Below the pieces are notes generated by a model. It made no database searches, had not been told where the DNA came from, and worked only from the letters and a program-made list of their open reading frames with translations. 64,000 nt of DNA from Fragilariopsis cylindrus CCMP1102 (Eukaryota > Bacillariophyta > Bacillariophyceae > Bacillariales > Bacillariaceae). Numbering within the stretch: position 1 is the stretch's first letter; each line of letters opens with the position of its first letter. The stretch is from contig FMBT01000523.1 of NCBI GenBank assembly GCA_900095095.1, positions 1 through 64,000 of the forward strand, read 5' to 3'. This document shows positions 9,153-60,086 of the stretch, piece after piece. The translations under genes were made by a program, and so were the position numbers.

Positions 9153-12100
9153 TTAACCGGTATTTCCCATTCCATTGGCAACTCCGGTAATGGTAGTGAG
9201 TAGACAATCCTTCAGTACCTTATCTTCCTTACCATCGGCTTCAGATTTACGGAGTCTTTGTAATGTTTCGGATTGAAGACAATTTAGTACATCAACGTAA
9301 CGGTTTCGGACACCCAATAATCCAATTAGGACGGAATTATCTTCACTCAATACCTTATGTCCTGTTAAATCAAGAACGGCACCTTCTGTTTGAGCGTGCA
9401 TTGCACGGATCTCGGCACCTAATTCCTTTGCCTTTTCATCCGATACTAACATATCATCGTAATTTTGTGCAATTTTTGGCTCACTTTTTGCTAGAACCAT
9501 TTCAACCATATCAACTGTTGTACGGAATGACGGCCATTGTTTGTACATTTCACGAAGTTTATCACCATCCTTACTAGCAAGGATCGTTGTGAATGCTTCA
9601 CCGACACCGAGCCATGTTGGTAAATTTAATCGTGTTTGTGTCCATGAAAAGTTCCAAGGGATTGCTCGTAAACTTTCTACACCACCGGTTGCTTTACGTT
9701 TAGCTGGACGTGATCCAATATTAAGATTCGATAATTCCAATTCCGGTGTTGCCGAACGGAAGTATGGTACGAACCGTTTATCTTCACTGACGATTTTACG
9801 GTATGCGTCACAACTAACATCCGATATTGTTTTCATTAATGAACGCCATTCATCCGTAGGTTGGACGTGTTCTGTTAATTTTTCAGCAAGGACAGCTGCG
9901 GTGTAAATATCCATAGTCCGCTCGGCACGATCCTGATAACCGAAATTTTGTGTAATCATTTCACCCTGTTCAGTGACACGGAACCGGCCATTGATAGTAT
10001 CAGGTGCATGGGCTAAGATCGCCTGGTATGTTTGTGGATTACCACCTCGTCCAACTGTACCACCCTTACCATGAAAGAACGTCATTTCTACACCAGCATC
10101 CCTGGCGACCTTGGCCAATGCTTCTTGAGTCTCGTATTGAGCCCAACTTGCTGCTAAACGACCAGCATCCTTCGCACTATCACTGTATCCAATCATGACC
10201 TAAAGGCAGGCAAAAATAGGTAAAAAGGTAGGTATGTAAGAAGGTAGAGAACGAAAGGGGTGTGAGGTGAGAAAAATATGAATTATAAGAATAAGAATAA
10301 CTGCAATGGTGCGTTTGTTGTGGCGTATTGGAAGGTTCAAATCTGTATTTCAGTGCAGGCGCATTGAAACACGTACCTCATGCTTTCCATCAATTGCACC
10401 CATATAGGCCGGAAGGCTAAATAATTTTGTCATTGTAGCAGCTGCGCCATTCAAATCATCTAATGTTTCAAATAATGGTGCGACACGAAGTGCTTTCTTA
10501 ACACCAGCATTTTTTTGTAATACTAATACAGCAAGTACGTCACTGGGTGTTGTTGCCTGACTAATAACATATGCTCCAAGTGATTCCTCATATTGTTCTT
10601 CAATCACTTGGAATGTCTCAAGTGTATCAATTGCATTAGATGAAAAGAATTTCGGATTGTCATTCCATGATCCTGATCGGATTAATGGTCGTGGGGATGC
10701 CAATTGTTGTTGTAACCATGATAATTTCGTATCTTCATCCCAATCGGAATAGGATCCTAATCCTAAGTATCGTGTAATAGAATCAATTGCTTCCTCATGA
10801 CGATCACTTTCCTGACGGATATCTAATTTTACCATGGTTAATCCAAATGCGTGTACATTACGAATAACATCCGTTAAGAATCCATCAGCTTCAATTTCAT
10901 TATCAGTTTCACATAATGAACGATAAATTAACATCAATTCATTAATAAGATCTTCCTTTTTGGTATAAACATCTTCAACGTCATACTGTGATTGATTTTG
11001 TGTCGATTCAAGTTGTTCTTCAGCCCAAATTTCGGTACGATTCATTCTAGCAATCATCTATTATAGCATATACAGGAAAGAAGACAGATAAAAACAAAGA
11101 GCGTTAGTACTAAATCTTTCTTTAATACACAGCAATTTGTATCATTTTTATTTTTGTTTATCGTTCTCTTCTTATATAGTATTGTACTACTAAAAAGCTT
11201 ACCTTTGATAGTACAGTACGGTATGGTTCAAAATTACCAGCATCACCACCTAATGATAATGCCATATCTTTTAATTCAGATGAACAATCCATAATAGATA
11301 ATTCACTTTCTAAACGTATTAAATCACGTTTCAGTAATCCAGCAGCCTGTGCACGATTTTTTAAACATACTTCACGTGTTACATCAGGTGTAACATTTGG
11401 ATTACCATCCCTGTCACCACCCATCCATGATGAAAATATTACAGGAGATGCATCTAATGGTAAACTTTTTGAGATAGTTTTTGTTGTTACACTATTCAAT
11501 CTTCGTAGGAAGGCTGGTAATGCATCCCACAAAACAGTCTCAACCACTAATGTACCACGTTCTGCTTCATTTTGTGGTGTTGGCTTGACATGGGCAGTTT
11601 CATCTGTTTGCCATGTGGATGCAATTTCACGTTTCAACGAACGATCTAATTCAGTTTGTGCATAACCTGTACTAGAGGATAAACCAGCATCACGTAAATA
11701 ATCAGCTTTTGTTAATATTTTTTGTACACGACGTTGTTTTTCTAATATTGTACGACGATTAACTTCTGTTGGATGTGCTGTTAACACCAACTCCACCTTT
11801 TGTGATAGTAAGGCATCATATATATCATCCTCACTATGACCTTGTTCTAATAAAGACTTCAATGCTCCACCACATGAATCATACCGATCAGGTAATGCCT
11901 CTTCACGTGTTGCCATGTTAAGACGTCGAATACGATGATGGCCTTCTGCAGCATTAGCATTCGATAAAAAGAAATTAAATGCACGTGCAATAATTAAGAT
12001 TTCACCATTACTTAAATTAGAACATGCCTTTGTTAATTGTTTAAATGTTGCATCCGCTTCATTTACTTTTGATACATCAGAACCACGTCCAGCACCAGCC

Positions 12101-12570
12101 ATTCTCCATTTTTTGGATAGACCACGTAATTCTTCAATCTTTTCAAATATTTCTGTACCATGATGATCTTGTACAATATGTCCAAGTAATGAACCCATTG
12201 TACGGATATCTGCACGTAATTGTGTATCCTTCTTGTCTTTATCATCATTTTCTGCTTCTGCCTCGGATGGTGTAAATGCTGCTGTAATTGATTCACCAGG
12301 TGAAGAAGAATTCTTCATTTCATCGAAAAGACTTTCACAACCAGGTTCAGCGAAACTTGACCCAAATGAAGTACTCATTGATCGGATGGCAGTAGTAGTA
12401 GTGGCAAGGCCACTACTACGGCTAGTGGCAAAGCTGTTTCCCGCGAAAACAGTCGTCGTCTTTTTTCTGGCTGCAATCGACGACGACGCCGTCGTCGTCG
12501 ACGACTTCATAAGCCAACGACGGGCAACGGATCCTCCCGTTGTGGATGATGAACGGAGCATGATTTTCAA
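9153..12570 (-). CDS. PEPC: Phosphoenolpyruvate carboxylase, likely mitochondrial form
   Basis: Three exons: 12570-11203, 11057-10377 and 10199-9153. Introns 11058-11202 and 10200-10376 have GT-AG ends and restore VLSK-MIARM and GKHE-VMIGYSDSAKD. About 1031 residues, normal for PEPC plus a presequence. It carboxylates phosphoenolpyruvate to oxaloacetate. Hallmarks: VLTAHPTEVNRRT (catalytic His), GGDRDGNPNVT, FHGKGGTVGRGG, RAIPWNFSWTQTR, and the C-terminal GNTG that matches the usual QNTG terminus. The first ~75 residues are rich in Arg, Ser and Thr, nearly free of acid residues, without a strong hydrophobic core, so a mitochondrial presequence is likelier than a secretory one. It shares a ~740-bp divergent upstream region with the vWA-type gene at 13313. 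No breaks seen. Very confident of identity, moderate on location. Confidence 0.96.
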
Positions 12571-13312
12571 GGTTTTATCGATTTATTTTCTCAACTGTCG
12601 GTTCAATCGAATATGATGAGAGCAAGAACGAGATGAAAAGAACTTGAAGACACAACCTAACGTACTTGCACTGTTGCTTCTGTTACGAGATTACGGTACA
12701 AGAATGAATAAGATTTTTGAAGCAACCAGCCGAAGTAAGGAATAAAAAATCAAGAACTTACGTAATGTGAAGATGACAAATGCATGAGTCAAATGCCAGA
12801 AGAATGATGGGAAGTGGGATCACAACCAGAAAAAGAGTCGCTCAACGCACGTGGTAAATACCGTAGGTAGTTTTTGTTGTGAATGATGTGTCGAAAATCT
12901 TGCATTTGCGCGCGCCAGAACAAAAAATCTTTTTCGAAACGTGGAAGTTTGTTTTGCTGACTGACGTGAATTGACATGCTATATTTCTATTTTAAAGGGG
13001 AGAGGAGGGAAATATATGATTGGGGGAGATATAAGTATTGTTAGGGGTAGTGATCGACAATGCCACGACTGAATACAAAAAGATAAACAAGGCAAGAACT
13101 TGTAGCTAAGATAGATTTTTCCTGCTTGGCACGAATGAAGAACGCATAGCGCGCCGCCATGCTTCAAAGCGAAACCTCCCTTCTCACGCAAAGATTTTTT
13201 GATGATTGCTTCTTTCGAACTCAACAAACATCAACAACACATAATAACTTCACAAGTTTAGAAGAGAAAAGAAGAGACAAAACAAGAATAAGAATAAGTT
13301 AACCTAAAAAAG
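12571..13312. promoter_or_regulatory. Divergent upstream region, PEPC and vWA-type gene A
   Basis: 742 bp between two oppositely directed start codons, so it should hold both promoters. It has TACGTAA and TGACGTGA words near 12760 and 12962, and the GC-rich stretch TTGCGCGCGCCAG at ~12906. Short minus-strand frames (12789-12977, 12979-13227) show no recognisable features and are probably chance. No TATA box can be assigned with confidence. Confidence 0.45.
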
Positions 13313-14732
13313 ATGGGTTTTATGAAGAATGCATTCGAGAAAATACAGGCCGAATTAGATCCATCGGCTACTGACGGTTCGACGAAGTCTGCTGCTCGTT
13401 CTTCTGGCGTACGCAGTAGCAGTAGCAGTAGTATCAGTTCATCCTCAACATCATCATTAAGTATGGCAAGTGTTATGCATTACGACTCCAATGCAACACG
13501 ATGGGAAAAGGCTGTTGTTGGTGTTGATACAATTGTTGCACAGGTATCAAAATTTGATCCTGATGGTGTTGATATCGTTATGGTTGGAGGTGTCACTATT
13601 GCTGGTGTTATCAACGAAGAAGAAGATGATGATGATGATGATTCAACTCAAGAACTGGTAGCCTCAGACAACGCTGACGCTGTTGAATGGCATCGTGGTA
13701 TCAAAAATACAGAAGGATTAGAAGAATTAGTAACATATAAAGAACCAAAAGGAATATGTCCATTAGGTCAAGCCATGGATGAAGTATGTACAGAGGCATT
13801 ATCAAGAGATTTAAAATCACGACCTTGCTCAGTTTTAGTATTAACAGCTGGGAAACCAGATGATCCAGAGCTTTTAGAGCAAACATTAGAAAATACTGCA
13901 CAACAAATTGCTAATTCAGGTGGTATAGCATTATCACCATTATCAATAACATTTATACAAATTGGTAATGATCCAGATGCATCACAATATTTACGTCATT
14001 TGGGTAAGAAAAAGTATATTCCATCGTCAACATATTCAATGAATGACGCTGAAGACAGTATTAGTACTGATGAAGATAATGGTCGTACAATTGATTTAGT
14101 TGACACAATGTCATATATAGAAATAAAAGAAACTATGGATGAAATGGGTAAGGCTGCTAAAGAAGCAAAAAAAACTGGTAGTAATGGCAGTAATGGACGG
14201 AATGGTGCAGTTGTTGGTGCATTAGCTGGTGCAGCTTTAGGCATTGGTGGTATGTATCTAGTTGGCAAGCAAAAAGAAAAGAAACGATACACATCAGGAT
14301 CATGGGATGGTAAATGGAAATGTTACTACGATGATGAAGAAATTGCTACATTAATTGTCAAAGATGACAAAGATGGTGGAATAAAAATTGACGGATTAAT
14401 TGATACAATGCATGGAACATACTCACATGGATCAGACTCCGATAAAGATGATTTTTTTCATTCAATTTATTGATCCAACAGGTGAAGTTGTTACTGGTGA
14501 ATTTGATGAAAAGTTATTTATACTCATTTGGAGTGATGGTACACGATGGGAAGCACTTAATAAAACAAGTGTTGTGAAATATTTAGGTGCAGCCACAGCT
14601 GGTGCTGCTATATTAGGTGGTACTGGATATATGGTTGATAAAAAATTCTTCAATAAGATACAGTCAAAAGATCAATGTGATTATATTATTATTATTGACC
14701 GATCAGCTAATATGACACATCGAGATAAATAA
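13313..14732 (+). CDS. Permuted vWA-type protein A with glycine-zipper segments
   Basis: Paralogue of the gene at 15439-16867. Order: conserved start MGFMKN; Ser-rich linker; vWA core (TRWEKAVVGVD, DPDGVDIVMVGG, LGQAMDEVC, SVLVLTAGKPDD, LSITFIQIGND); glycine zipper GALAGAALGIGGMYL at ~300; a small Trp-rich beta region (WDGKWKCYY, TLIVKDDKDGG); IWSDGTRWEAL; a second Gly/Ala segment; and, only 20 residues from the end, CDYIIIIDRSANM, which looks like the first vWA strand with its metal-site loop. No intron. The frame slips once in a seven-T run near 14451-14457: the first frame stops at 14473, the homologous continuation (IQFIDPTGE) reads one base over to 14732. Function unknown; membrane-associated metal-site scaffold is a guess. 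Confidence 0.7.
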
Positions 14733-15438
14733 AATAAGTAATATGAATAATAAGCAAGACGAATGAAGAAAAAGACGAGAGAGAAGGACAGAGACGATGT
14801 ATATATGTATATATATAGAATGAGACGAGAACGATTAATAAATTTTGGATTATTAAGACACGATGAACGAAGTTTTAAAAATAGTTCTAAACATATATTT
14901 ATCTTTAACTGTAGGAATGAATGCAACTTCATTATATCGTAGTAAAAATAGTAAAGTTAAAAAAGTTTACCTTCTAACTTATATTTTACAAGGAAAATCA
15001 GTAATAGTAAAGCAACCCATTATTTATTATCATACCAGTATTCGAATTGTGTAATCTCAGAGTTGGGTGTAGTGATGTACACTTGCATGCCACCGCTACT
15101 ACAGTGTAGAAGTGCGGCAAAGGATCGTTGCTTTCTTGTATGAATCATGTAGTATCGTCCTCCTCGTCGGTACTCAGTACGATCGAACGACAACGATGAG
15201 GCAATCCGATAAGCTACAAGAAAGACAAAAATATTTTCCTGATTCTCTACATTCTACTTTATGTTGAATACCCTTTAGGGTGGATTGCGTAAAATAGTAT
15301 GTATGTATGTTGATTTTTTTGATTTTTAAAGAATTATTACTATGGAACGAAGAACGAAGAACGACAACGGAGTGTTCCTTCATCGTGAATTAATTAGGTG
15401 TGTATTGTATATATATTATTTCATCTTTATTTTCATAT
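14733..15438. other. Intergenic between the convergent vWA-type genes
   Basis: 3' UTRs of both paralogues. Contains a short alternating GTATATATGTATATATATAG near 14799 and TGTATGTATGT near 15300. A 63-residue open frame at 14863-15054 has no support. No third gene copy and no downstream vWA exon is visible in either direction. Confidence 0.55.
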
Positions 15439-16867
15439 TTAAGGATCAACAACAGCCATCTTCGCTGATCGGTCCATTAAGATAATGTAATCGCATTGAT
15501 CACCCTTTGATGCCTTATTGAAAAATTTCTTATTCAATAGGTAACCAGTTGCACCAGCTGCAGCAGCACCGCCAGCAGCAGCGGCAGCATAGCCAGTCCA
15601 ATGTCCACCATCCGGTGGCATTTCATCCCAACGTGTACCATCACTCCACGTGATGGCATGTTCATCTTCGACAGTACCTTCAATATTCCAATCACCACTA
15701 GGGTCTTTAAATTCAATTGTATATTCTTGGTCTTCATCTTCTTCATCTAATACACTGTATGTTCCAGTTGTTGGTTCACCAGAAGGAAAACCTTCAATGA
15801 CAAGTCCACCTTCCTTGTCATCTTTTACCTTCAGAATCGAAATTTCTTCACCTTCATAGGTAACCTTCCATTTACCACCCCATCCTGCTGTGCGTTTCTT
15901 AGCTTGGTTCTTGTTGTACAGGTACATGCCACCAACACCTAATGCAGCACCTGCAAAGGCACCAATAAGTGCACCATTCTTACCAGATGTTTTAGTGCCC
16001 TTAATTTCAGACATGGCAGCTTTAATTTCAACATCCTTAATGGTATCAACTAAATCAAACATTTCACTATTTGCAGCACATTCTGCTTGGATGTGTCCAT
16101 CTAAATGTTTTAAATATTCGTCTGCCTTTGGATCATTACCGATTTGAATAAATGTTACTGACAATGGCATTGTTTCACATGTATCAGCAAGGCGTGTAAC
16201 AGCCTTAAGTAATGTCGCATCAAGTTCATCAGCATCATCAGGACGACCCGCTGTCAATACAAGGATAGCAACAGGTCGGTTTGTTAAATCCTTATTGAAT
16301 GCATCCTGAATAGCTTCATCCATTGCTGCACCCATACGACATGGCTGTTGTTGTTGTTTGTTTTACGTCGGGTGGTGTGTGTGTTGGTGTGTGTGTGTGT
16401 GTTTGAGAGAGCGAGAGAAATAATATAGCGGAGAAAGTAGAAGAACATGTGTGAGAGAGATTTGCAACAATTTTGAAAGTGGGAAAAAGTCGTTGACGTC
16501 GGGTCGTTAATGGGAGGAGAATGAAAAAAAACTAAAAAAATACAATACAATACGATACAAAATAATGACTACTTACACCACTTGGTCGTTTGTCATTGAC
16601 CATTGCTTCAATATGTTTAGTTTTTTTGATGTTACGATACCAATCAGCATCGTCATCACCACCAAAGCATACAATATCAACCCCATCAGGATCGACTTTT
16701 ACAACTTGGACAACAATTTTATCCATAGAAACAACCGCCTTCTCCCATCGTGTTGGCGGTGGTCCTGATGCACGTCGTGTTGCTTTTCCTGAACTTTGAC
16801 TGGTTGATAAGGAACTACCACCAACTTCTTCTTGTAAATTTGCGAACATGTTCTTCATGAAACCCAT
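15439..16867 (-). CDS. Permuted vWA-type protein B with glycine-zipper segments
   Basis: Two exons, 16867-16577 and 16344-15439, giving 398 residues; intron 16345-16576 (GTAAGT...CAACAG) joins KRPSG to PCRMGAAMDEA. Residues 39-46 TRWEKAVV, 59-70 DPDGVDIVCFGG, 101-108 MGAAMDEA, 122-130 VAILVLTAG and ~159-168 SVTFIQIGND follow the later strands and helices of a vWA domain. Missing at the front is the usual first strand with DxSxS; a matching CDYIILMDRSAKM sits at 381-393, five residues from the end. Between are a glycine zipper (221-240), a beta-rich region with WGGKWKV and ITWSDGTRW (251-336) and a second Ala/Gly segment (~347-366). The metal motif is DRSAK, so the last Ser is replaced. The frame is intact. 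Location may be a membrane via the zippers. Novel arrangement, function unknown. Confidence 0.75.
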
Positions 16868-29178: not shown

Positions 29179-32100
29179 TCATACTGTTGGGGATAATGTT
29201 GGGGAATCAGTTCTTCTACATTTTCTCCTGCAGATTGATGGACAAAAGAATTTTAAAAGTTTATCAGTACCAGGTTGTTCCTCTCTACATCTCTTCCTTG
29301 GTTTTTCTGCAACATATGAATCACATGTAAGTTCTGGATTGTCTTTAAATCGGAATATCTCAGAATTTGTACAGTCCCCACGTTGTTCTGTTGGTGATGA
29401 TGGTGGTGAATAAGTTTCACATTTTTTCTTGCATGTTGCTGGACAAAATTTACGAACACTCTTTCCACCAGAACCTTGGACTTTCTTTCTACATCTCTTG
29501 ATGGGGTTTTTTGCAACGTATGAATCACATGTAAGTTCTGGATTGTCTTTAAATCGGAATATCTCAGAATTTGTACAGTCATCACCTTTTACTGTGGGTG
29601 ATGAAGTTGGTGATGATGCTGTTGATGATGTTGGTGATGATGTTGGTGAATTAGTTTCACATTTTTTCTTGCATGTTGCTGGACAAAATTTACGAACACT
29701 CTTTCCACCAGAACCTTGGACTTTCTTTCTACATCTCTTGATGGGTTTTTTTGCAACGTATGAATCACATGTAAGTTCTGGATTGTCTTTAAATCGGAAT
29801 ATCTCAGAATTTGTACAGTCATCACCTTTTACTGTGGGTGATAAAGTTGGTGATGATGCTGTTGATGATGTTGGTGATGATGTTGGTGAATTAGTTTCAC
29901 ATTTTTTCTTGCATGTTGCTGGACAAAATTTACGAACACTCTTTCCACCAGAACCTTGGACTTTCTTTCTACATCTCTTGATGGGTTTTTTTGCAACGTA
30001 TGAATCACATGTAAGTTCTGGATTGTCTTTAAATCGGAATATCTCAGAATTTGTACAGTCATCACCTTTTACTGTGGGTGATGATGTTGGTGATGATGCT
30101 GTTGATGATGTTGGTGATGTTGTTGGTGAATTAGTTTCACATTTTTCCCTGCATGTTGCTGGACAAAAGTTGCGAACTCTCTTTCCACCAGAACCTTGGA
30201 CTATCTTTCTACATCTCTTGATGGGCTTTTCTGCAACGTATAAATCACATGTAAATTCTGGATTGTCTTTAAATCGGAATATCTCAGAATTTGTACAGTC
30301 ACCACGTCTTACTGTTGGTGATGATGTTGGTGATGATGTTGGTGAATTAGTTTCACATTTTTTCCTGCATGTTGCTGGACAAAAGTTGCGAACTCTCTTT
30401 CCACCAGAACCTTGGACTTTCTTTCTACATCTCTTGATGGGTTTTTTTGCAACGTATGAATCACATGTAAATTTTGGATTGTCTTTAAATCGGAATAAAT
30501 CAGAATTTGTACAGTCACCACGTCTTACTGTTGGTGATGATGTTGGTGAATTAGTTTCACTAGGAACAGAACTTGGTTTCAAACTTCGGACAGCACTTGG
30601 TCTTCTACTCGGATCAACACTAGGAGCAGTACTAGGTACATCACTTGGTGATTGACTAGGCTTTTGACTTGGAATGGAACTTTCCAATGAACTTGGTACA
30701 GTACTAGATAATGAACTTGGTTTCGAATTCGGGACAAAACTTGGAGCTCTGCTCGGATCGAGACTAGGAACAGAACTAGGTACCATACTTGGCGGAAGAC
30801 TTGGCTTTTGACTTTGAATAGAACTTGGACCAGCACTAGGAACACCACTGGGCATAGAACTTGGTTTCAAACTTGGGACAGCACTTGGTCTTCTACTTGG
30901 ATCAACACTAGGAGCAGTACTAGGTACATCACTTGGTGATTGACTAGGCTTTTGACTTGGAATGGAACTTGGAGCTCTGCTTGGATCAAGACTTGGAAGA
31001 AAACTAGGAGCAGTACTCGGTGAATGACTCGGAAGGGAACTAGGGGCAGCACTTGGTGAAATACTTGGAAGGGAACTGGGTGCAAGACTGTTGCTTGGTT
31101 CAGCAGTTCTGGTGGGTTCAGAACTGGGTACAGCGCTTGTGGTTGGTGCATTGCTTAAGCTTGGTAGACTACTTGGCAGCAAACTTGGTGCAAAACTAGG
31201 GTTAGAACTAGGGACAGCACTGGGTGAGTGACTTGGGTCAGAACTTGGTGTTAGACTGGGCCTTGAACTAGGAACAACACTTGGTGATTGACTAGGCTCA
31301 GAACTTGGTGTAACACTGGGCCTTGAGCTTGGAACAGCACTGGGTGAACGGCTTGGCTCAGCACTTGGTGAATAACTTGGCTCAACACTTGGATTCGAAC
31401 TTGGCGCAATTGATATACTTGGACCTGAACTTGGTTCAGAACTAGGCTCCTCACTGGGAGGCAAAATTACCGTAGCTTCTATCCCTAAAGTTTCCTCTAA
31501 AACTTTGGCATATTCTTCTGTCACAATTGCTTCTTCATTTTCTGCTGCTGCTGCTGCAGTGTCAAAGCCTGTTGAAGGTGGAGCAGTGAAGGTACATAGT
31601 ACATAAAAACAATTAGAATTAGTTGTATCTTCATTAGTTTCCGCTTCAATATCTTCACAGGGTGTCTCTGTTGCAGTACACTTAGTAAGAATTTCTTTAG
31701 CAATAGATAGAAAACGTTGGCGTCTAGTTGAGTTTGTTGAGATACCAGCAATTGCTTTTGACGTATCAGTAGCACCTATAGGAACAAAGAACAAGTGAAA
31801 ATTGGTTAGAAATAGTTAATGATGAAAAAAAGACAGTGTTTGGGGGGAAAAGTAAAAGGTTTTGGCTTACCTTTTGCAACTTCCTCAGCAGTAACAGTCG
31901 ATAGAAAACGTTGGCGTCTAGTTGAGTTTGTTGAAATACCAGAAAGTGCTCTTCCGGTATCATCAGGAGCAGCACTCGGTGAAAGACTCAGAGAACTAGG
32001 AACAGCAACAACCGCTCCATAAGTAGTTTCAGGTGTGATAGTCGGAACATTTGAGGGCATCGAACTTGGGAAAAGACTTGGATTGACACTTGGCAATGAA

Positions 32101-35100
32101 CTTGGTGTGAGACTGGGACTAGAACTAGGCACATCACTAGGAAGAGAGGAAGGTTCCAAACTTGGTGAATGACTTGGCAGTAAGCTGGGTCTCAAACTAG
32201 GTAGACCGCTCGGATCAAGCGAAGGAGGACAAGATGGAGACACACTTGGAACATCACTTGGTGCAGAACTTGGTGATTGACTAGGCTTAAGACTTGGCCC
32301 AAAACTAGGCAAACCACTAGGAACCTCACTTGGGATGGAACTTGGTGCGCCACTCAGATCTTGGAATGAAACTTGGAACAGCACTTGGTGTAACACTTGG
32401 CCCAAAACTAGGCAAACCACTAGGAACCTCACTTGGGATAAAACTTGGTGCGCGACTTGGATCAAAACTAGGAGAAGAGCTGGGAGCACCACTTGGTGTA
32501 AGACTTGGAATGGAACTTGGTACAGTACTTGGTGTAAGACTTGGCCCAAAACTAGGCAAACCACTAGGAACCTCACTTGGGATGGAACTTGGTGCGCGAC
32601 TTGGATCAAAACTAGGAGAAGAGCTGGGAGCACCACTTGGTGAAAAACTTGGAATGGAACTTGGAACAGCACTTGGTGCAAGACTTGGCCCAAAACTAGG
32701 CAAACCACTAGGAACCTCACTTGGGATGGAACTTGGTGCTGAACTTGGTGTGCCACTTGGATCAAAACTAGGAGAAGAGCTGGGAGCACCACTTGGTGTA
32801 AGACTTGGAATGGAACTTGGAACAGCACTGGGTGTAAGACTTGGCCCAAAACTAGGCAAACCACTAGGAACCTCACTTGGGAAGGAACTTGGTGCTGAAC
32901 TTGGTGTGCCACTTGGATCAAAACTAGGAGAAGAGCTGGGAGCACCACTTGGTGAAAGACTTGGAATGGAACTTGGAACAGCACTTGGTGCAAGACTTGG
33001 CCCAAAACTAGGCAAACCACTAGGAACCTCACTTGGGATGGAACTTGGTGCTGAACTTGGTGTGCCACTTGGATCAAAACTAGGAGAAGAGCTGGGAGCA
33101 CCACTTGGTGAAAGACTTGGAATGGAACTTGGAACAGCACTAGGTGTAAGACTTGGCCCAAAACTTGGCAAACCACTAGGAACCTCACTTGGGATAAAAC
33201 TTGGTGCGCGACTTGGATCAAAACTAGGAGAAGAGCTGGGAGCACCACTTGGTGAAAGACTTGGAATGGAACTTGGAACAGCACTTGGTGCAAGACTTGG
33301 CCCAAAACTAGGCAAACCACTAGGAACCTCACTTGGGATGGAACTTGGTGCTGAACTTGGTGTGCCACTTGGATCAAAACTAGGAGAAGAGCTGGGAGCA
33401 CCACTTGGTGTAAGACTTGGAATGAAACTTGGAACAGCACTTGGTGTAACACTTGGCCCAAAACTAGGCAAACCACTAGGAACCTCACTTGGGATAAAAC
33501 TTGGTGCGCGACTTGGATCAAAACTAGGAGAAGAGCTGGGAGCACCACTTGGTGTAAGACTTGGAATGGAACTTGGTACAGTACTTGGTGTAAGACTTGG
33601 CCCAAAACTAGGCAAACCACTAGGAACTCACTTGGGATAAAACTTGGTGCGCGACTTGGATCAAAACTAGGAGAAGAGCTGGGAGCACCACTTGGTGAAA
33701 GACTTGGAATGGAACTTGGAACAGCACTTGGTGCAAGACTTGGCCCAAAACTAGGCAAACCACTAGGAACCTCACTTGGGATGGAACTTGGTGCTGAACT
33801 TGGTGTGCCACTTGGATCAAAACTAGGAGAAGAGCTGGGAGCACCACTTGGTGTAAGACTTGGAATGGAACTTGGAACAGCACTAGGTGTAAGACTTGGC
33901 CCAAAACTTGGCAAACCACTAGGAACCTCACTGGGGATGAAACTTGGTGCACCACTCAGATCAAAACTAGGAGAAGAGCTGGAGCACCACTTGGTGAAAG
34001 ACTTGGAATGGAACTTGGAACAGCACTTGGTGCAAGACTTGGCCCAAAACTAGGCAAACCACTAGGAACCTCACTTGGGATGGAACTTGGTGCACCATTC
34101 GGATCAAAACTAGGAGAAGAGCTGGGAGCACCACTTGGTGAAAGACTTGGAATGGAACTTGGAACAGCACTTGGTGCAAGACTTGGCCCAAAACTAGGCA
34201 AACCACTAGGAACCTCACTTGGGATGGAACTTGGTGCTGAACTTGGTGTGTGACTTGGATCAACGCTAGGAGTAAAACTAGGTACATTACTTGGTTTGTG
34301 ACTTGGATCAACACTAGGAGTAGAACTTGGTACCAAACTTGGGACAGTACTTGGTTTGTGACTTGGATCAGCACTAGGAGAAGAACTAGGTACACTACTT
34401 GGACCAGCACTAGGTGGTGAACTTGGTACAAAACTTGGGACTGTACTTGGTTTTTGACTTGGATCAGCACTAGGAGTAGAACTAGCTACATTACTTGGAT
34501 CAGCACTAGGACCAGCGCTAGGACCAGCGCTAGGTGATGAACTTGGTACCGGACTTGGGACAGTACTTGGTTTGTGACTTGGATCCTGACTAGGAGCAGA
34601 ACTAGGTACATCACTTGTTATTTGACTAGGCTTAGAGCTCGGACCAGAACTTGGACCAGCACTAGTACTTGGTTTGCTACTTGGATCCTGACTAGGAGCA
34701 GAACTAGGTACATAACTTGGTGATTGACTAGGCTTAAAGCTTGGACCAGCACTAGTACTTGGTTTGCTACTTGGATCCTGACTGGGAGCAAAGCAGCCTT
34801 GTTCAAAATTCTGGCACCACGGACCTAATGTTGGATTTGGGTCTTTCTTATCTGGACATCCAGAAAATTGCAGCATTTGGCCAGTATCAACATAACCAGA
34901 AGTCTTTCCAGCCCATGTGGAAAGACATTGATTGAGAGAAGTTGCTCTACGAAACATAAATCTCATAGTTTCTACCTGAGAGACATCCCAAGAGTCAATA
35001 GGTTGGTTGAAAGAAGTTGCACTATAAAACATAGATTGCATTGATGTTACTTGAGAGACATCCCATCCGTCAATAGATTCGTTGAAAGAAGTTGCACCAG

Positions 35101-36304
35101 AAAACATTCCATCCATATTCACTACCTGAGCGACTTTCCAAGAGTCAATAGATTGGTTGAAAGAACTTGCACGACGAAACATTTGTTTCATATTCACTAC
35201 CTGAGCGACTTTCCAAGAGTCAATAGATTGGTTGAAAGAACTTGCACCAGAAAACATTTCTTTCATATTCTCTACCTGAGAGACATCCCATGAGTCAATA
35301 GGTTGGTTGAATTTTGATGCATATTTAAACATCCGGTACATAGATACTACCTTTGAGGTATCCCAACACTCTATAGGGTCATTGAAATATTTAATATCAT
35401 TATCAAAACTACTGTAGAATTCTTCATAATCGTCATTGAATTCTTCATAACCGTAGAAAGCTTTATCCATATTAGTAATTTTTGACGTATCCCAGCAGTT
35501 AATTGTGCCAGAATAGTTGTCTCTCCTATTTTTGATCAAATTTTGGAAACTTCCACCATATTCAGATACATCTGGACGTGGACTGGGACATGCTGCACAA
35601 GCAGATGCTGGAAGGCGGCGTTCATCACGTGCAGCAGTACTAGTAACAGTATCCTCCCAATAAGAAGCTGGAATATCAGATGAAGCACTGGGATCACTGG
35701 AAGCCCAATAGGCAGGTGGGATATCGTTGATGTCAGTACAAACTCCGGACTCCTTTTCAATAGATGAAGATGATTGCCTCATATCTTTGTTGATACAAAT
35801 CTGCTTCCTTGAGGAGGAGCATGAAGACAATGGAAGACTCCCAGCATCAACCTTCCTAGTTTTGCCAAGTGTTACAGGAGGGAAACATTCTTCCTTACCC
35901 CAACGGGAAAAAGAATAGGTAGACTTAGTAGTAGGATGAGAAGCCGCTGCTTCTTCATCCTTCTTGTTGTTATCCTTAATGTCACTATCCACATTGCGAA
36001 TTCTGTTTGGTTCAGAATGGACCTCAAGAGAAAAAGTAGACTCAGTAGTAGGATGGTAAGCAGCTTCTTCTCCCTCCTCCTTGTTGTTATCCTTAACGTC
36101 ACTATCCATGTGGACCTCAAGAGAAAAGAAAGACTCAGTTGTAGGATGGGAAGCCATTGCTTCTTCATTCTTCTTGGTGTCACCATCCATGTTGCGGATT
36201 TTGTTTGGTTCAGAACGGACCTCAAGACCGTTAGCAACTAATGACTTAGCAGTAACAAGGAAGGGAGCAAGTAACGAGCTGACACATGCAGGAGAAAACT
36301 TCAT
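29179..36304 (-). CDS. Large secreted protein: DUF285 repeats, PSxx repeats, ShKT-like modules
   Basis: Start 36304 gives a hydrophobic leader (MKFSPACVSSLLAPFLVTA), so secretion is likely. Next come Ser/Glu-rich HPTTES segments, then ~7 BspA/DUF285-type repeats (FNQPIDSWDVSQV, MFSGASSFN) at ~35460-34930, then over 1000 residues of PSxx repeats, then six Cys-rich modules with six cysteines each (CTNSEIFRFKDNPELTC, FCPATC) at ~30530-29210. One clear intron, 31776-31870, joins EVAKG to ATDTSK. Within the PSxx array the frame slips three times: one G short near 33980, one C short near 33626, and a small deletion near 32355; because the array is open in several frames, no quick stop follows. Cell-wall, adhesion or matrix roles are inferred from similar diatom proteins. 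The ShKT label is by cysteine pattern only. Confidence 0.85.
29405..30125 (-). repeat. 240-bp tandem repeats coding Cys-rich modules
   Basis: Three almost identical 240-bp units (phased at 29589, 29829 and 30069) each code one six-Cys module plus an SPTSSPTSS linker. Flanking modules are more diverged, so the middle three arose most recently. Confidence 0.9.
32290..34250 (-). repeat. PSxx minisatellite, 144-156 bp units
   Basis: About thirteen near-identical units coding EVPSGLPSFGPSL, then PSAVPSSIPSL, then PSGAPSSSPSFDPS. Units come in a short form (ending RAPSFIPS) and a form with an extra GTPSSAPSS. High identity implies continuing expansion and contraction. Confidence 0.9.
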
Positions 36305-36640
36305 TATGACAAATAGTAAAGATTTTTTTGCTGTGAGTTTTATTTTAGAAAATTAACAAAAAAGAATCAGAAGAAGGGGAAAATAATAACAACAAAAGAT
36401 ATGAGAAGAAGGAAAAAATTTGAATTTAACAATAAAGCAAGTAAAATCGTAGCACTGGTAAATAATGATGCCTGATTGATATATAGTTAAGAGTATGTAC
36501 TAATATATTATCTCAAATAGAACAATGAAGACAGTAACGGTGGCAACATAAAGGCATGTACATAATAAAAAACGAGGATGATATTGTAAGATTTGTTGTT
36601 GTTGTTGTTGTTAAGTCTTTTGGGGGGTTCTTGAAGAATT
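36305..36640. other. Upstream region of the secreted repeat gene
   Basis: Presumed promoter and leader. A-rich, with TTGTTGTTGTTGTTGTTG near 36595. No gene seen. Confidence 0.45.
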
Positions 36641-54427: not shown

Positions 54428-55313
54428 TGATTTTAAAATCCGCTATAAGCTGTTATAAGAGCAAACCAAGGTTTGAGCATGAAAGCACAGGTTTCGGAAT
54501 GAAACAGCTTTCGATAGAGGTGCTTGTACTCTTGTTAACGCTAGGATGAAAATAACGACTGATTGATATTCTATTTTCTAGAAATAATGAATACTTCAAC
54601 AACTGGAAGACTGCCAAGCGCAGCCGAAGACAACCTAAGGGTACAACGTCTTACGACAACAAACTAATGTACAACGAGACTAAGGTCCACACTGAAGTAC
54701 TGCCATGGTTACAACACCAGAGTACGAAATCGACACATAAGTTCAACTAAAATCTTCACATAAACTGTTCGTGATTAGCTATCATGACTGACTTATGTGC
54801 AAGTGACCAGTGAACACGTGCACTTTGCAATTGGATAAGACACAAATCAATATTCAAAAATATTTACTATGACCCATAAATGTAACAACATGTTACGGGG
54901 CATATACAATGCAAGCCTAAAGACGAGACAGTGCGTCATCAGTCTTAAATAAAGACACAACTCGAGTGTGAGTATATAAAACACACACACGAATCATTGC
55001 ATGTAACACTAATATTGCGATGGGAATCAACGCCAATTCCGTATTACATAGGAATATGTATGGAGGAAAAGTGCGAATAAAGTGAAGCCAACGCATGTGC
55101 TGAAATAATTCAGTATCCATCCATCGCTAATAATCGACTCAAAGAGCGATAATAAGAGATAGCAAGAGATGGCACATGCTGGTATTCAAATGAAATATTA
55201 ACCGGAGAAGACATTCAACGGTACACTCATTCCCACAAGCAACAGACCACTGCAACACGATAACAGCCCAAGATTACACTTGTGTTAAGAAAAACAACAG
55301 TTCAACTCGTACA

Positions 55314-56648
55314 ATGAAAGTCAAGTTTACAGACACCACCAAGCATAACACCAAGTACAAAGGCTTACGTCCTTTTACCCATGGTAGACGCGTGTGGAAG
55401 GATGATGCAGCGACTGAAAAGATTAAGTATGAGAACGCTGTTGGAGGCGTGTTATTTGATGAAAAACTACTTGTATTGGAAGGGAATGAACTCCCTGAAC
55501 TCTTTGTGATTTGGAAGATTGCTTTTATGAATCGCATCTATAACCATTCGTCACTGTCATGGGATTCTAAGATAACAGTACTCACTCGTATCTGCCGCAA
55601 CGAAGCGCTAGCAGTAGTTAATAACACACTTTCAAAGTGTCGAGACGGAGCAACTGTACACTTCGAAAAGATCAGTATTAAAGCAAGAGTCGATGCTCTT
55701 GACACTGATTCACCTGATGATTCAGATGACGACGCTGAGTTCCAAGCTTACGCAGTAAGTGAACAGTACAAGGAAGATATCATCAATGAAATACTGTATC
55801 ATCTCTCTCTAAAGATATTTGGAAGTGATCATGCAGGAAAAAGTGCATATATTCAACTAAGAAGAACGATTCATCAGTTCAAAGTTGATTTGAACTTTGG
55901 TATTAGGAAATGGGCTGAACGACTCGAAGACTTCCAAAGTTATCTCCCACACTGCCCATGGAATGCAGGCGAGAGACGAGGACAGCTACCTAAACCCTTT
56001 ACAGAGTTTGAAATGCGAGAGATATTAGAACACAACCTTGTGTTCGAACAACTAATGGAACTGTACAATATGGATTGGTCTGTACAAGACCAACCGTATA
56101 AAGAAACTATCACGAAGTTAGAAGGCTTAGAAGCAACAATCATTCGTGAAAAGTTAATGCAGAAGCGAGTAGCAGCATTAGAAGGTGGTGACAGCAGTGG
56201 CAGAGCCAACAACAAAAAGCGGAAAGCTTACAATGGAGGCGACTCAAATGACTCTTCACAGAGTAACAATGCCAACAGTGGACAATGCCCACACTGCAAA
56301 AAACGCCACAAGGGGGTATGCCGGTTCAAACCTTCAGGTACGGACGACGCATCCTCCACAACAAAAACCTCGAAGTTCAATAAACCACAGCGACAATATA
56401 TCAATCAATTGATTGAAGCTGCAGTTAAGAAAACTAGAGGTGAATCACATGTAGTGGAATCTGATGAAGACGATGAAAACAATTGGTCAAAGAACATGAC
56501 ACCAGGAGAACACATGTTTGTTCTCAGTGCAGCTCAACATGATCAAGGAACCGATTCACCAGATATCGACATTGATGAAGATGATTTAAGACAGTTCAAG
56601 AAAAACTACAAAACTGTTCAAAAGAAATTAAAGAAATCACGAAAGTGA
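55314..56648 (+). mobile_element. gag region of the Gypsy-type element
   Basis: Codes a ~444-residue gag-like protein with a basic, Asn/Ser-rich segment and one CCHC-like zinc knuckle near residue 325. Acidic C-terminus. It lies immediately upstream of pol. Confidence 0.85.
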
Positions 56649-56699
56649 AGTAAACTGGACACAAACTCTGATACAACAAAGCGATTAGGGAGGAAAGTC

Positions 56700-59600
56700 A
56701 TGAGACAATGGCGCCCTCCGGACACACTTAATAATAAGCAAAACAAGCAAGCCAATAACGGACGCAGTATTAACAGACTATTAAAAAGTGAACGCCGGTA
56801 TTCAGAGATATGTGTCCAGGTGGTGATGAGTAATGGAAGAGGTATGATGCTACGAGCACTACTCGATTCAGGCTGCTCTAAATCCATCATATTAAAGAAG
56901 TTTACAGAAAGAAAACGACGAATCGAACTGAAAGATAAAGATAAAGTAGAATATGCAACCTATGGTGGTAAATTCCAATCTACATCAACAGCGAGCGTGG
57001 GTTTCAAGTTGATTGAGTTCGCTAACAAGCAAACAATCAATTACAAATTCCAGGTGGATGATTTACAATCAGCCAACCAGGCAAGATACGATATGATCAT
57101 TGGATCAGATCTATTAAATGAATTAGGAATCAACATACGATACAGTAACAACTGTATCGAATGGGAGGAAGATACGATTCCAATGAAATTACTTGGAGAG
57201 TTACAGGATAAAGTCACATGTGAAATGATTTACAACATGCACACAGACAGTCCTATCCTCAAGGAGCACGAAGAGAGACAAGCAGCTATATTAGATGCTA
57301 ACTACTCGAAAGTGGATATTGACAACATGGTAAATGAACTCGATATCAAGGAAGAAAGCAAAGTGAAGCTCAAACAGACGCTCAAGAAATTCCCTACTCT
57401 GTTTGGGGGTGGTCTTGGACGTCTTGATATTCCTCCAGTATCAATTGAGTTAAAGAAGGACGCGAAGCCATTTCAAGGAAGATACTATAATATTCCAAAG
57501 GCATTCGAAGAATCTACAAGAAAAGAAGTCAATAGGATGTGTGAGATAGATGTCTTACGCAAACTAACCTATGACGATGACTCTCCATGGGCAGCACCAT
57601 CCTTTGCTCAAATAAAGAAGACTGGGGATGTAAGGATACTAACGGACTTCCGCAAGATGAATCTTGCTATTGAACGGAAGCCTTTTCCATTGCCTAGGAT
57701 TGGAGAGTCTATTCAAAAGATTGAAAAGTTCAAATCAGCAACGGCGTTGGATCTATCTCAAGGATATTATTCAATACCAGTTGACGAAAAGACACAAAAG
57801 ATATGTACAACAGTACTGCCTTGGGGCAAGCATGCATATAAGAGGCTAGCTATGGGAATAGCATGTGCCCCAGATATATTCCAATCAATCATGATGGAAA
57901 TACTTGGTGACTTAGATTACGTATTAGTATATATTGATGATATATTAATAATTCAACGAGAACATGAGACTGAAGAAGACCATCTTAGAAAAGTGGAAAC
58001 AGTACTACATCGATTGCAGAAGAAAGGATTTAGAGCAAACTTGCGCAAATCCTTCTTCATGCAAAAGCAAGTTGAATATTTAGGTTGGCTGTTAACAACC
58101 AATGGTTTAGAACCACAGCCAAAGAAGATCGAAGCGATGAAGAGAATCCAACCTCCAAAGAATACAAAACAACTAAAGATGTTTCTAGGTATGGTTAACT
58201 TCTATCGAGATCTATGGCCGAAAAATCACATATCTTAGCTCCATTAAATAAGCTTCGTCCAAAACAGGCAAGCTGAATTGGAAGTGGGGACCTGATCAAC
58301 AAAAAGCGTTTGATAAAGCAAAGGAAATGTTAGCTAATGAAGCAAGACTATCCTACCCAGACTTTTCAAAGCCCTTTGATTTATATACTGATGCTAGCGA
58401 TCTACAATTAGGAGCTACGCTGGTACAAGAAGGAAAACCTTTAGGATTCTACACACGAAAGCTCAATTCAGCGCAGATGAACTACACTGTAGGAGAAAAA
58501 GAGTTACTAGGGATAGTGGAAGGCTTAAAGGCATTCGATGGCGTAGTCCGTGGAATGAAGTAACAGTACACACTGATCATCTTAATTATTATATCAAAAC
58601 ATGCCATCTCAACGGATGGTCCGATGGAGACTGATGCTGGAAGAATTAATCCAACAATCAAACATGTAGCTGGTAAAGATAATGATGCAGCAGATGCACT
58701 GTCACGATTAGAGATGAAAGAAAAACCCTATGATGTAATCACATGGGAGAAACAAAACAAACCATTAAAGTATGAAAATGACAAGCAAATAAAAGTTATG
58801 TGCAATGTCATGTCACACTTAGAATTCGATTCCAATGTGGATGATGAATACTTGTATCCATTAGCAGTAGAACGCGAGTTCGCTGATAAACAATATCCAT
58901 TGGATGTATCATTATTTAAAACAAATCAAGATGCTGATACCAAGTTACAAACTAAAGTACAAGCAAATCAAAAGTTTAATAATGATAGATTCACAACAAA
59001 AGAAGTTGAAGGAGTGGAATTAATACATGATAATGGAAAGATATTAGTACCACAACAATTATGGGAAAGTGTCTTAGAATGGTATCACTTATTACTCGTA
59101 CATCCTGGAGAAAAGAGGATGGAATCTACAATTAGATTAGTATATACATGGCCAGGTATGCGGACGCAAGTAAAAGAACGTTGTAAGACCTGTCATGAAT
59201 GCCAAATGAGTAAAAAGGGTGGTATAAAGAAATATGGGCTTCTCCAGAGAAAACAGGAGAAGTAACAAAGTGGAGTAGAGTAAACGTTGATTTATGGGGA
59301 CCTAAGAGTGTTGACAATGGAGAATTTACTTATCAAGTCCATGTGATGACAATGGTTGACCCTGTAACCGGATGGTTTGAATTAGCGCCACTTTATGGTA
59401 ATCCAACAGCCTTTAGGGCACAACAACTACTTGACAACACATGGTTGGCAAGATATCCAAGACCAAGAGAAATTGGATTCGATAATGGAGGCGAATTCAA
59501 AGCTGAATTCAAGGATTTATGTAACAATATGGGACTAAAACAGAAACCAAGTGCTGCATGGAATCCACAGTCGAACGCCATCCTAGAAAGAATACATCAA

Positions 59601-60086
59601 GTATTGGCTGATTGCATACGATCATTCAACCTTGAAGAAAGGGAATTCAATGAATTAGATGATGATCCATTTGAAGAATATCTTACTGCAGCAGCATTCT
59701 CAATTAGATCTGCATTTCATCAAACACATGGTCATTCGCCTGCACAGATGGTGTTTGGTAGAGATATGTTCATGCCTGTGAGTGCAGACATTGATTGGGA
59801 AGTAATAAAACAACGTAAACAAGAAAGAATTCGTAAGAGCAACTCAAGAGAAAACTCTAAAAGAATCGAACATAAATATAAAGAAGGTGATCTCATTACA
59901 TTAGAGAAAACCGGAATCATTCGTACACTAACGTTACCACGACAAGGTCCTTATAAGGTTATAAAGCACCATAATAATGGGTCTGTAACTATTGAAAAAG
60001 AGCCATTTGTAACTGATAGGGTTAATATACGAAGAGTACGTCCGTACTATACGAGACAAAACAATAATAATACTACAGGTGACTAA
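56700..60086 (+). mobile_element. pol region of the Gypsy-type element
   Basis: Protease with a DSG active site at the start, then reverse transcriptase with a YxDD site, RNase H, and an integrase with an HHCC finger and a DDE core. Family and order are clear. It is broken in about three places. Known Ty3/Gypsy elements make pol with gag by frameshift or read-through; that cannot be judged here. Confidence 0.9.

Follow-up and report, generated by a model that had tools for sequence, protein, structure and literature searches.

The metal site of vWA domains, the MIDAS motif, is built from the DxSxS, T, and D metal ligands. The vWA domain of Rpn10 has the normal strand order and no working MIDAS and serves protein contacts. 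Several folds are known to have undergone circular permutation, and its usual route is through a tandem-domain protein that has been trimmed at both ends. The systems closest to the locus described here are the small cyanobacterial VWA proteins WP_028946484.1 (from Synechocystis PCC 6714), WP_057177078.1, and WP_015173955.1, which have the normal order, a length of about 200 residues, and intact MIDAS residues. No report of a permuted vWA domain was found in the open-licence literature, among the matches listed. The accessible part of one source mentions a permuted peptidase and no permuted vWA domain (PMC8195603), while another describes proteins with both a vWA domain and cpRAS, a RAS-like GTPase that is permuted (PMC2430557).

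Two neighbouring genes in the 64-kb window (the whole stretch of DNA that was analysed), designated A and B, are deduced from sequence comparisons and structure prediction to encode vWA-fold proteins with a circularly permuted domain whose old termini are bridged by a separate module (probability about 0.8). The permutation had been proposed in the initial annotation and was borne out by the collinear match of re-ordered B (with its own C-terminal tail placed in front of the N-terminal part), by the swapped BLASTP pieces, by the gain of B in the Pfam score, and by the core-dependent confidence of the tail of A. Re-ordered B is approximately 26 to 33% identical to the cyanobacterial VWA proteins over most of the vWA domain, with the positions DY...D.S..M, RW, D.DG, IQ.G, and D...T in common, but those proteins differ from A and B in order, length, and metal site. 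Like cpRAS, the pair would exemplify a eukaryotic alpha/beta domain that underwent circular permutation in nature. In cpRAS the permuted part is the GTPase, and the vWA domain of those proteins is not described as permuted in the accessible part of the source (PMC2430557).

Gene models and the search for further vWA pieces

Genes A (13313..14732, forward strand) and B (16867-15439, reverse strand) face each other tail to tail, and their products are 50% identical. Gene A is intronless and encodes 472 residues when a one-base frame slip in a T7 run (14452..14458, forward strand) is read through. This slip is either an assembly error or a real lesion, and the frame past it still resembles B as far as the final block. 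A real slip would end the product inside the beta region, with loss of the tail, whereas an assembly error would leave gene A intact.

The 398 residues given for gene B in the initial annotation were recovered when exons at 16867-16577 and 16344-15439 were joined at an inferred splice. Exon 1 (16577..16867, reverse strand) comprises 97 codons for an N-terminal extension, helix 1, and strand 2, while exon 2 (15439..16344, reverse strand, including the stop) encodes the remaining vWA part, the zipper-beta-zipper module, and the tail. The 232-nt intron (16345..16576, reverse strand, GTAAGT...CAG) was deduced from the frame and from the paralogue. Since gene A has no intron at the same position, one gain or loss would have occurred since the duplication. 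Both products begin with MGFMKN and end with DQCDYII..DRSA.M, and every motif previously quoted for A and B was present where it had been placed.

It had also been claimed that no further vWA exon lies downstream, and none was detected by three approaches. A tblastn search with B across the 64 kb gave nothing above chance besides A and B, a canonical HMM run against 3,047 open reading frames of the window gave no other match better than E 0.13 (the best unrelated frame), and the strand-1 matrix described below found no additional block with a score close to those of the tails. The HMM search is weak for short exons, as the true tail of A itself reached only E 0.11. With this limit on short exons, a hidden extra vWA exon was rejected on the tblastn and HMM results. 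tRNA and Rfam searches of the window gave no matches.

These data bear on the possibility that the order is an artefact of the gene models or of the assembly, with a normal vWA gene split by missing exons or misassembly. The homopolymer slip in gene A and the weakness of the search for short exons would be in keeping with such an artefact. It would, however, have to account for two paralogues that are 50% apart, lie on opposite strands, and have the same order in frames that are continuous save for the slip in A and the intron in B. Furthermore, the 5' ends of both genes are short and stop-bounded, and the 64 kb contain neither another strand-1 block with a score close to those of the tails nor any other vWA piece that tblastn or the HMM could detect. 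An artefact is therefore considered very improbable.

Order of the vWA segments

Both proteins start at vWA helix 1, and the end of the chain reads as vWA strand 1. The N-terminal 200-odd residues resemble a vWA domain without strand 1, and the C-terminal 20 residues resemble the missing strand. In gene A, the N-terminal part from helix 1 to the last helix was located by HMM and AlphaFold2 at 13493..14173 (forward strand, residues about 61-287), and strand 1 with the former metal loop lies at 14673..14714 (forward strand, QCDYIIIIDRSANM, residues 454-467). The corresponding strand and loop of gene B lie at 15457..15498 (reverse strand, QCDYIILMDRSAKM, residues 380-393). Neither A nor B therefore has the canonical order of the vWA superfamily, in which strand 1 comes first, as the strand-1 block is C-terminal in both.

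The first evidence for the permuted order was from Pfam, whose cut-offs are 23.8 bits for VWA (PF00092) and 27 bits for VWA_2 (PF13519). In the native order, B scored 19.0 and A 15.9 bits against VWA, both below the cut-off, with the N-terminal parts matching profile positions 40-150 (B) and 81-166 (A). Searches in the native order can thus miss such domains. The N-terminal part of B alone scored 21.1 bits, and with its own tail in front the score rose to 27.6 bits (profile 3-153), above the cut-off, compared to 21.8 bits with one shuffled tail in front. Re-ordered B also gained a VWA_2 match of 21.1 bits, which is below the cut-off. For re-ordered A, the VWA score was 20.7 bits, below the cut-off and with the tail outside the match, while a sub-threshold VWA_2 match of 17.1 bits took in the tail. 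The vWA-TerF-like profile (PF10138) matched neither protein, native or re-ordered, at E values up to 1.

The swapped order was also seen without any re-ordering. A BLASTP comparison of unaltered B with the Synechocystis vWA protein gave two pieces in exchanged order, residues 26-199 of B aligning with residues 14-180 and residues 379-398 with residues 3-22 (E values of 9e-17 and 9e-4, respectively, for this single comparison). Two extra pieces were attributed to chance (E 2.0 and 8.6). When a profile was built from 27 non-redundant relatives, re-ordered B scored 85.3 bits over profile positions 2-181, compared to 74.0 bits for its N-terminal part alone. This collinear match agrees with the proposal that joining the end of B to its start restores the usual vWA order, and it places re-ordered B in the vWA superfamily by recognisable sequence over most of the domain. 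With the same profile, the tail of unaltered A was a separate match to positions 2-20, and that of unaltered B was a weak match (1.3 bits) to positions 2-19. The two pieces of B, at profile positions 2-19 and 16-180, nearly abut in the loop that leads from strand 1 into helix 1.

The specificity of the tails was assessed with a strand-1 matrix of 14 columns derived from 11 distinct sequences out of 80 kept loci. The tails of A (24.8 bits) and B (19.2 bits) ranked first and second among the 64,848 stop-free six-frame windows of the stretch, the next window scoring 12.0 bits, and none of 200,000 shuffles of either tail reached the true score. For the whole-domain score, shuffled tails equalled or exceeded the true tail in 2 of 2,000 cases for B and in 0 of 2,000 for A. 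Windows taken from the core of B and placed in front did outscore the true tail (up to 90.6 versus 85.5 bits), probably through a second match of these windows to their own part of the profile. Among windows from outside the core (172 for B and 198 for A), the true tail was the top scorer in both proteins, by a slim margin in B (85.5 versus 84.8 bits).

Relatives with the normal order were found in several collections. A tblastn search of plasmid records with re-ordered B detected three cyanobacterial VWA proteins (best E 5e-12, covering 4-184 of the 204-residue query). In prokaryote genomes, an alignment of re-ordered A and B found no relatives by itself, while the same alignment with cyanobacterial rows added found them in 403 of 484 candidate stretches. 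In the best 80 of these 403 loci, the match began at query residue 4 or 7 throughout; the titles of 79 of them name cyanobacteria or cyanobacterial genera, and the remaining one names a Polyangiaceae MAG. Viral contigs yielded 12 relatives with matches from residues 1-7, although re-ordered B and the full-length A/B alignment each gave no matches to viral contigs. In all 92 relatives examined, of which 80 are the best among the 403 prokaryote loci and 12 are viral, the strand-1 motif precedes the helix-1 motif [STN]R[WY], which is the normal order. Because the queries carried strand 1 in front, relatives with tail-like first strands may have been favoured; the Pfam test of B is free of this bias, as it is independent of the fetched relatives. 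No third permuted protein was recognised among the loci kept from the prokaryote, viral, and phage searches.

Other searches were less productive. One search of PDB sequences gave no match and another gave three matches, all with E above 1; PHROGs gave no match to re-ordered B; and in phage records the matches were all weak and partial, in four records of two Streptomyces phages. Two of the relatives, L001 and L004, match PF10138 above its cut-off. At locus L003 (1986-4546), the gene that comes next downstream of a Calothrix plasmid vWA relative belongs to the dynamin family.

Conservation between the paralogues is highest in the tail. Residues 379-393 of B are identical to A at 12 of 15 positions (80%), compared to 40 to 64% for eight other segments and one of five (20%) for the final five residues. 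At 4 of the 12 identical tail residues the codons differ. This suggests that the tail has been under selection and is not alike simply because the duplication is recent, although a comparison of two sequences allows no firm conclusion.

Predicted fold and metal site

The AlphaFold2 alignment for gene A contained 34 rows, consisting of A, the B exons as two rows, and 31 relatives (of 50 prepared). As the relatives had been cut to begin after strand 1, the alignment gave AlphaFold2 no hint of where strand 1 belongs. The best of five models had a mean pLDDT of 61 (range, 53.6 to 61.0) and a pTM of 0.56. In ten-residue blocks, pLDDT was 76 to 95 across the vWA core, except for residues 91-120, 241-260, and 281-290 (58 to 68), and it was under 50 for residues 290-329 and 362-445. 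The tail blocks (residues 451-472) had pLDDT values of 79, 85, and 67, and a strand was assigned by DSSP at 456-462. In a control with residues 285-472 of A and the matching part of B, without the core, the tail blocks fell to 30, 35, and 23, with a low-confidence strand still called, in runs that also differed in length and depth (34 versus 2 rows). On the basis of pLDDT and DSSP, the tail of A is confidently placed by the prediction only when the vWA core is present.

The same data are relevant to strand donation between molecules, in which the C-terminal strand of one chain would complete the vWA sheet in an adjacent molecule, and dimers or polymers would result. The sequence evidence would be identical to that for the intramolecular case, and the low-confidence stretch between core and tail (pLDDT under 50 over 362-445) would suit such an exchange. 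Against this, the tail is confident in the monomer, the only form modelled, and no pointer to oligomers was found here. Donation between chains is accordingly given a slim chance. An extension of this idea, a strand-donor device tethered by the module, in which the A/B pair or many copies would polymerise and folding would be gated by completion of the chain, is likewise doubtful.

When the model of A was compared to the PDB with Foldseek, no match reached E 0.001 or better. The top match was 8jtk_B (probability 0.99, E 0.016, TM-score by target 0.53, identity 14%), taken to be Rpn10 from its title and chain length, and the top two entries were plant Rpn10 complexes. Other vWA domains appeared at lower ranks among many unrelated alpha/beta proteins. 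That the Rpn10 vWA domain is the best Foldseek entry for A does not imply a link to the proteasome.

The initial annotation had described the C terminus as the first vWA strand and its metal-site loop. The strand-1 block was located there as described, but the site is not intact: A and B keep the D and the first S of DxSxS, while the second S is replaced by K or N, the T by C, and the D of TDG by A. Three of the five MIDAS ligand positions are thus changed in both paralogues, so that neither is a MIDAS-containing vWA domain. Among the 92 relatives, a text pattern found DxSxS in 92, TDG in 92, and T in 90, and in one of the two exceptions (L062) the T is visible by eye. An intact metal site in A and B was rejected on these ligand changes relative to intact relatives, and from the same substitutions the tail loop is probably vestigial as a metal site. 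The changes would also mean that a ligand is not bound through metal. By analogy with Rpn10, the domain would most likely be a metal-independent platform for protein interaction.

The initial annotation had raised the alternative of an older tandem-domain protein trimmed at both ends. Since the same trimming is the usual route to circular permutation, this competes with permutation only if the tail is idle, that is, if it is left over from a second vWA domain and takes no part in the folding of the first. Such a relic would have the same sequence layout, and the loss of metal ligands from both parts could be expected of it. On the other hand, an idle remnant would not readily explain why conservation is highest in the tail and is lost in the residues that follow, why the pieces of B nearly abut at the loop, or why AlphaFold2 is confident about the tail only with the core present. 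An idle tail is therefore regarded as unlikely.

Bridging module, proposed topology, and surroundings

Between the C-terminal helix of the vWA part and the tail lies a module made up of a glycine-zipper segment, a Trp-rich beta region, and a second Ala/Gly segment. In gene A (forward strand), these were assigned to 14195..14263, to 14300..14558, which contains WSDGTRW and is predicted by AlphaFold2 to form strands (block pLDDT 57 or lower), and to 14580..14636, a small-residue segment deduced from hydropathy. In gene B (reverse strand), they correspond to 15913..15984 (residues 218-241), 15622..15888 (residues 250-338), and 15535..15594 (residues 348-367). The Pfam glycine-zipper matches, which include the first segment of A, were all below the cut-off. 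An NCBIfam OmpA-lipoprotein match around the zipper of B (residues 204-267, E 1.1e-5) was rejected, as its score of 24.9 is far from the cut-off of 307. By hydropathy, the first segment was borderline and the second was low, which is weak for membrane insertion, and a two-helix membrane hairpin was rejected as a firm claim on this basis. Tethering of A and B to a membrane by the zipper segments is possible, although this is a guess.

In the proposed permuted topology, the chain would begin at helix 1, continue through strands 2 to 6, and exit the domain through the glycine-zipper, Trp-rich beta, and Ala/Gly module, after which its end would come back and take the place of strand 1 at the centre of the vWA sheet. 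The loop that joins strand 1 and helix 1 would be the cut point, with the module spanning the two former termini. According to a crystal-structure paper, vWA domains have their N and C termini near each other (PMC3919171), which makes a bridging module sterically reasonable. Synthesis of the chain would reach the central strand of the sheet last, with a whole module bridging the old termini, and folding may consequently proceed only once the whole chain is complete. The A/B pair would thereby offer a natural experiment on how much re-wiring the folding of a vWA domain can withstand.

As the order is common to both paralogues, the permutation is most simply older than the A/B duplication. The most likely route would be that an ancestor with the module ahead of a normal vWA domain was duplicated in tandem, and that the first copy then lost its strand 1 and the second copy all that followed its own strand 1. 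This route predicts that unpermuted relatives with the module followed by a vWA domain exist.

Three other regions of the window were read by eye or from their repeats. Adjoining gene A, open reading frames at 9153-12582 (reverse strand) look like a fragmented phosphoenolpyruvate carboxylase gene. Large Ser/Pro-repeat proteins are encoded at 29179-36352 (reverse strand), with tandem CTNSEIFRFKDNPELTC...KKC repeats and PSxxPS repeats, in more than one frame around 32-34 kb. These proteins and other nearby genes make a diatom the likely source of the DNA. At 55194-60086 (forward strand), the open reading frames read as a gypsy-type retroelement with reverse transcriptase (YIDDIL) and integrase.
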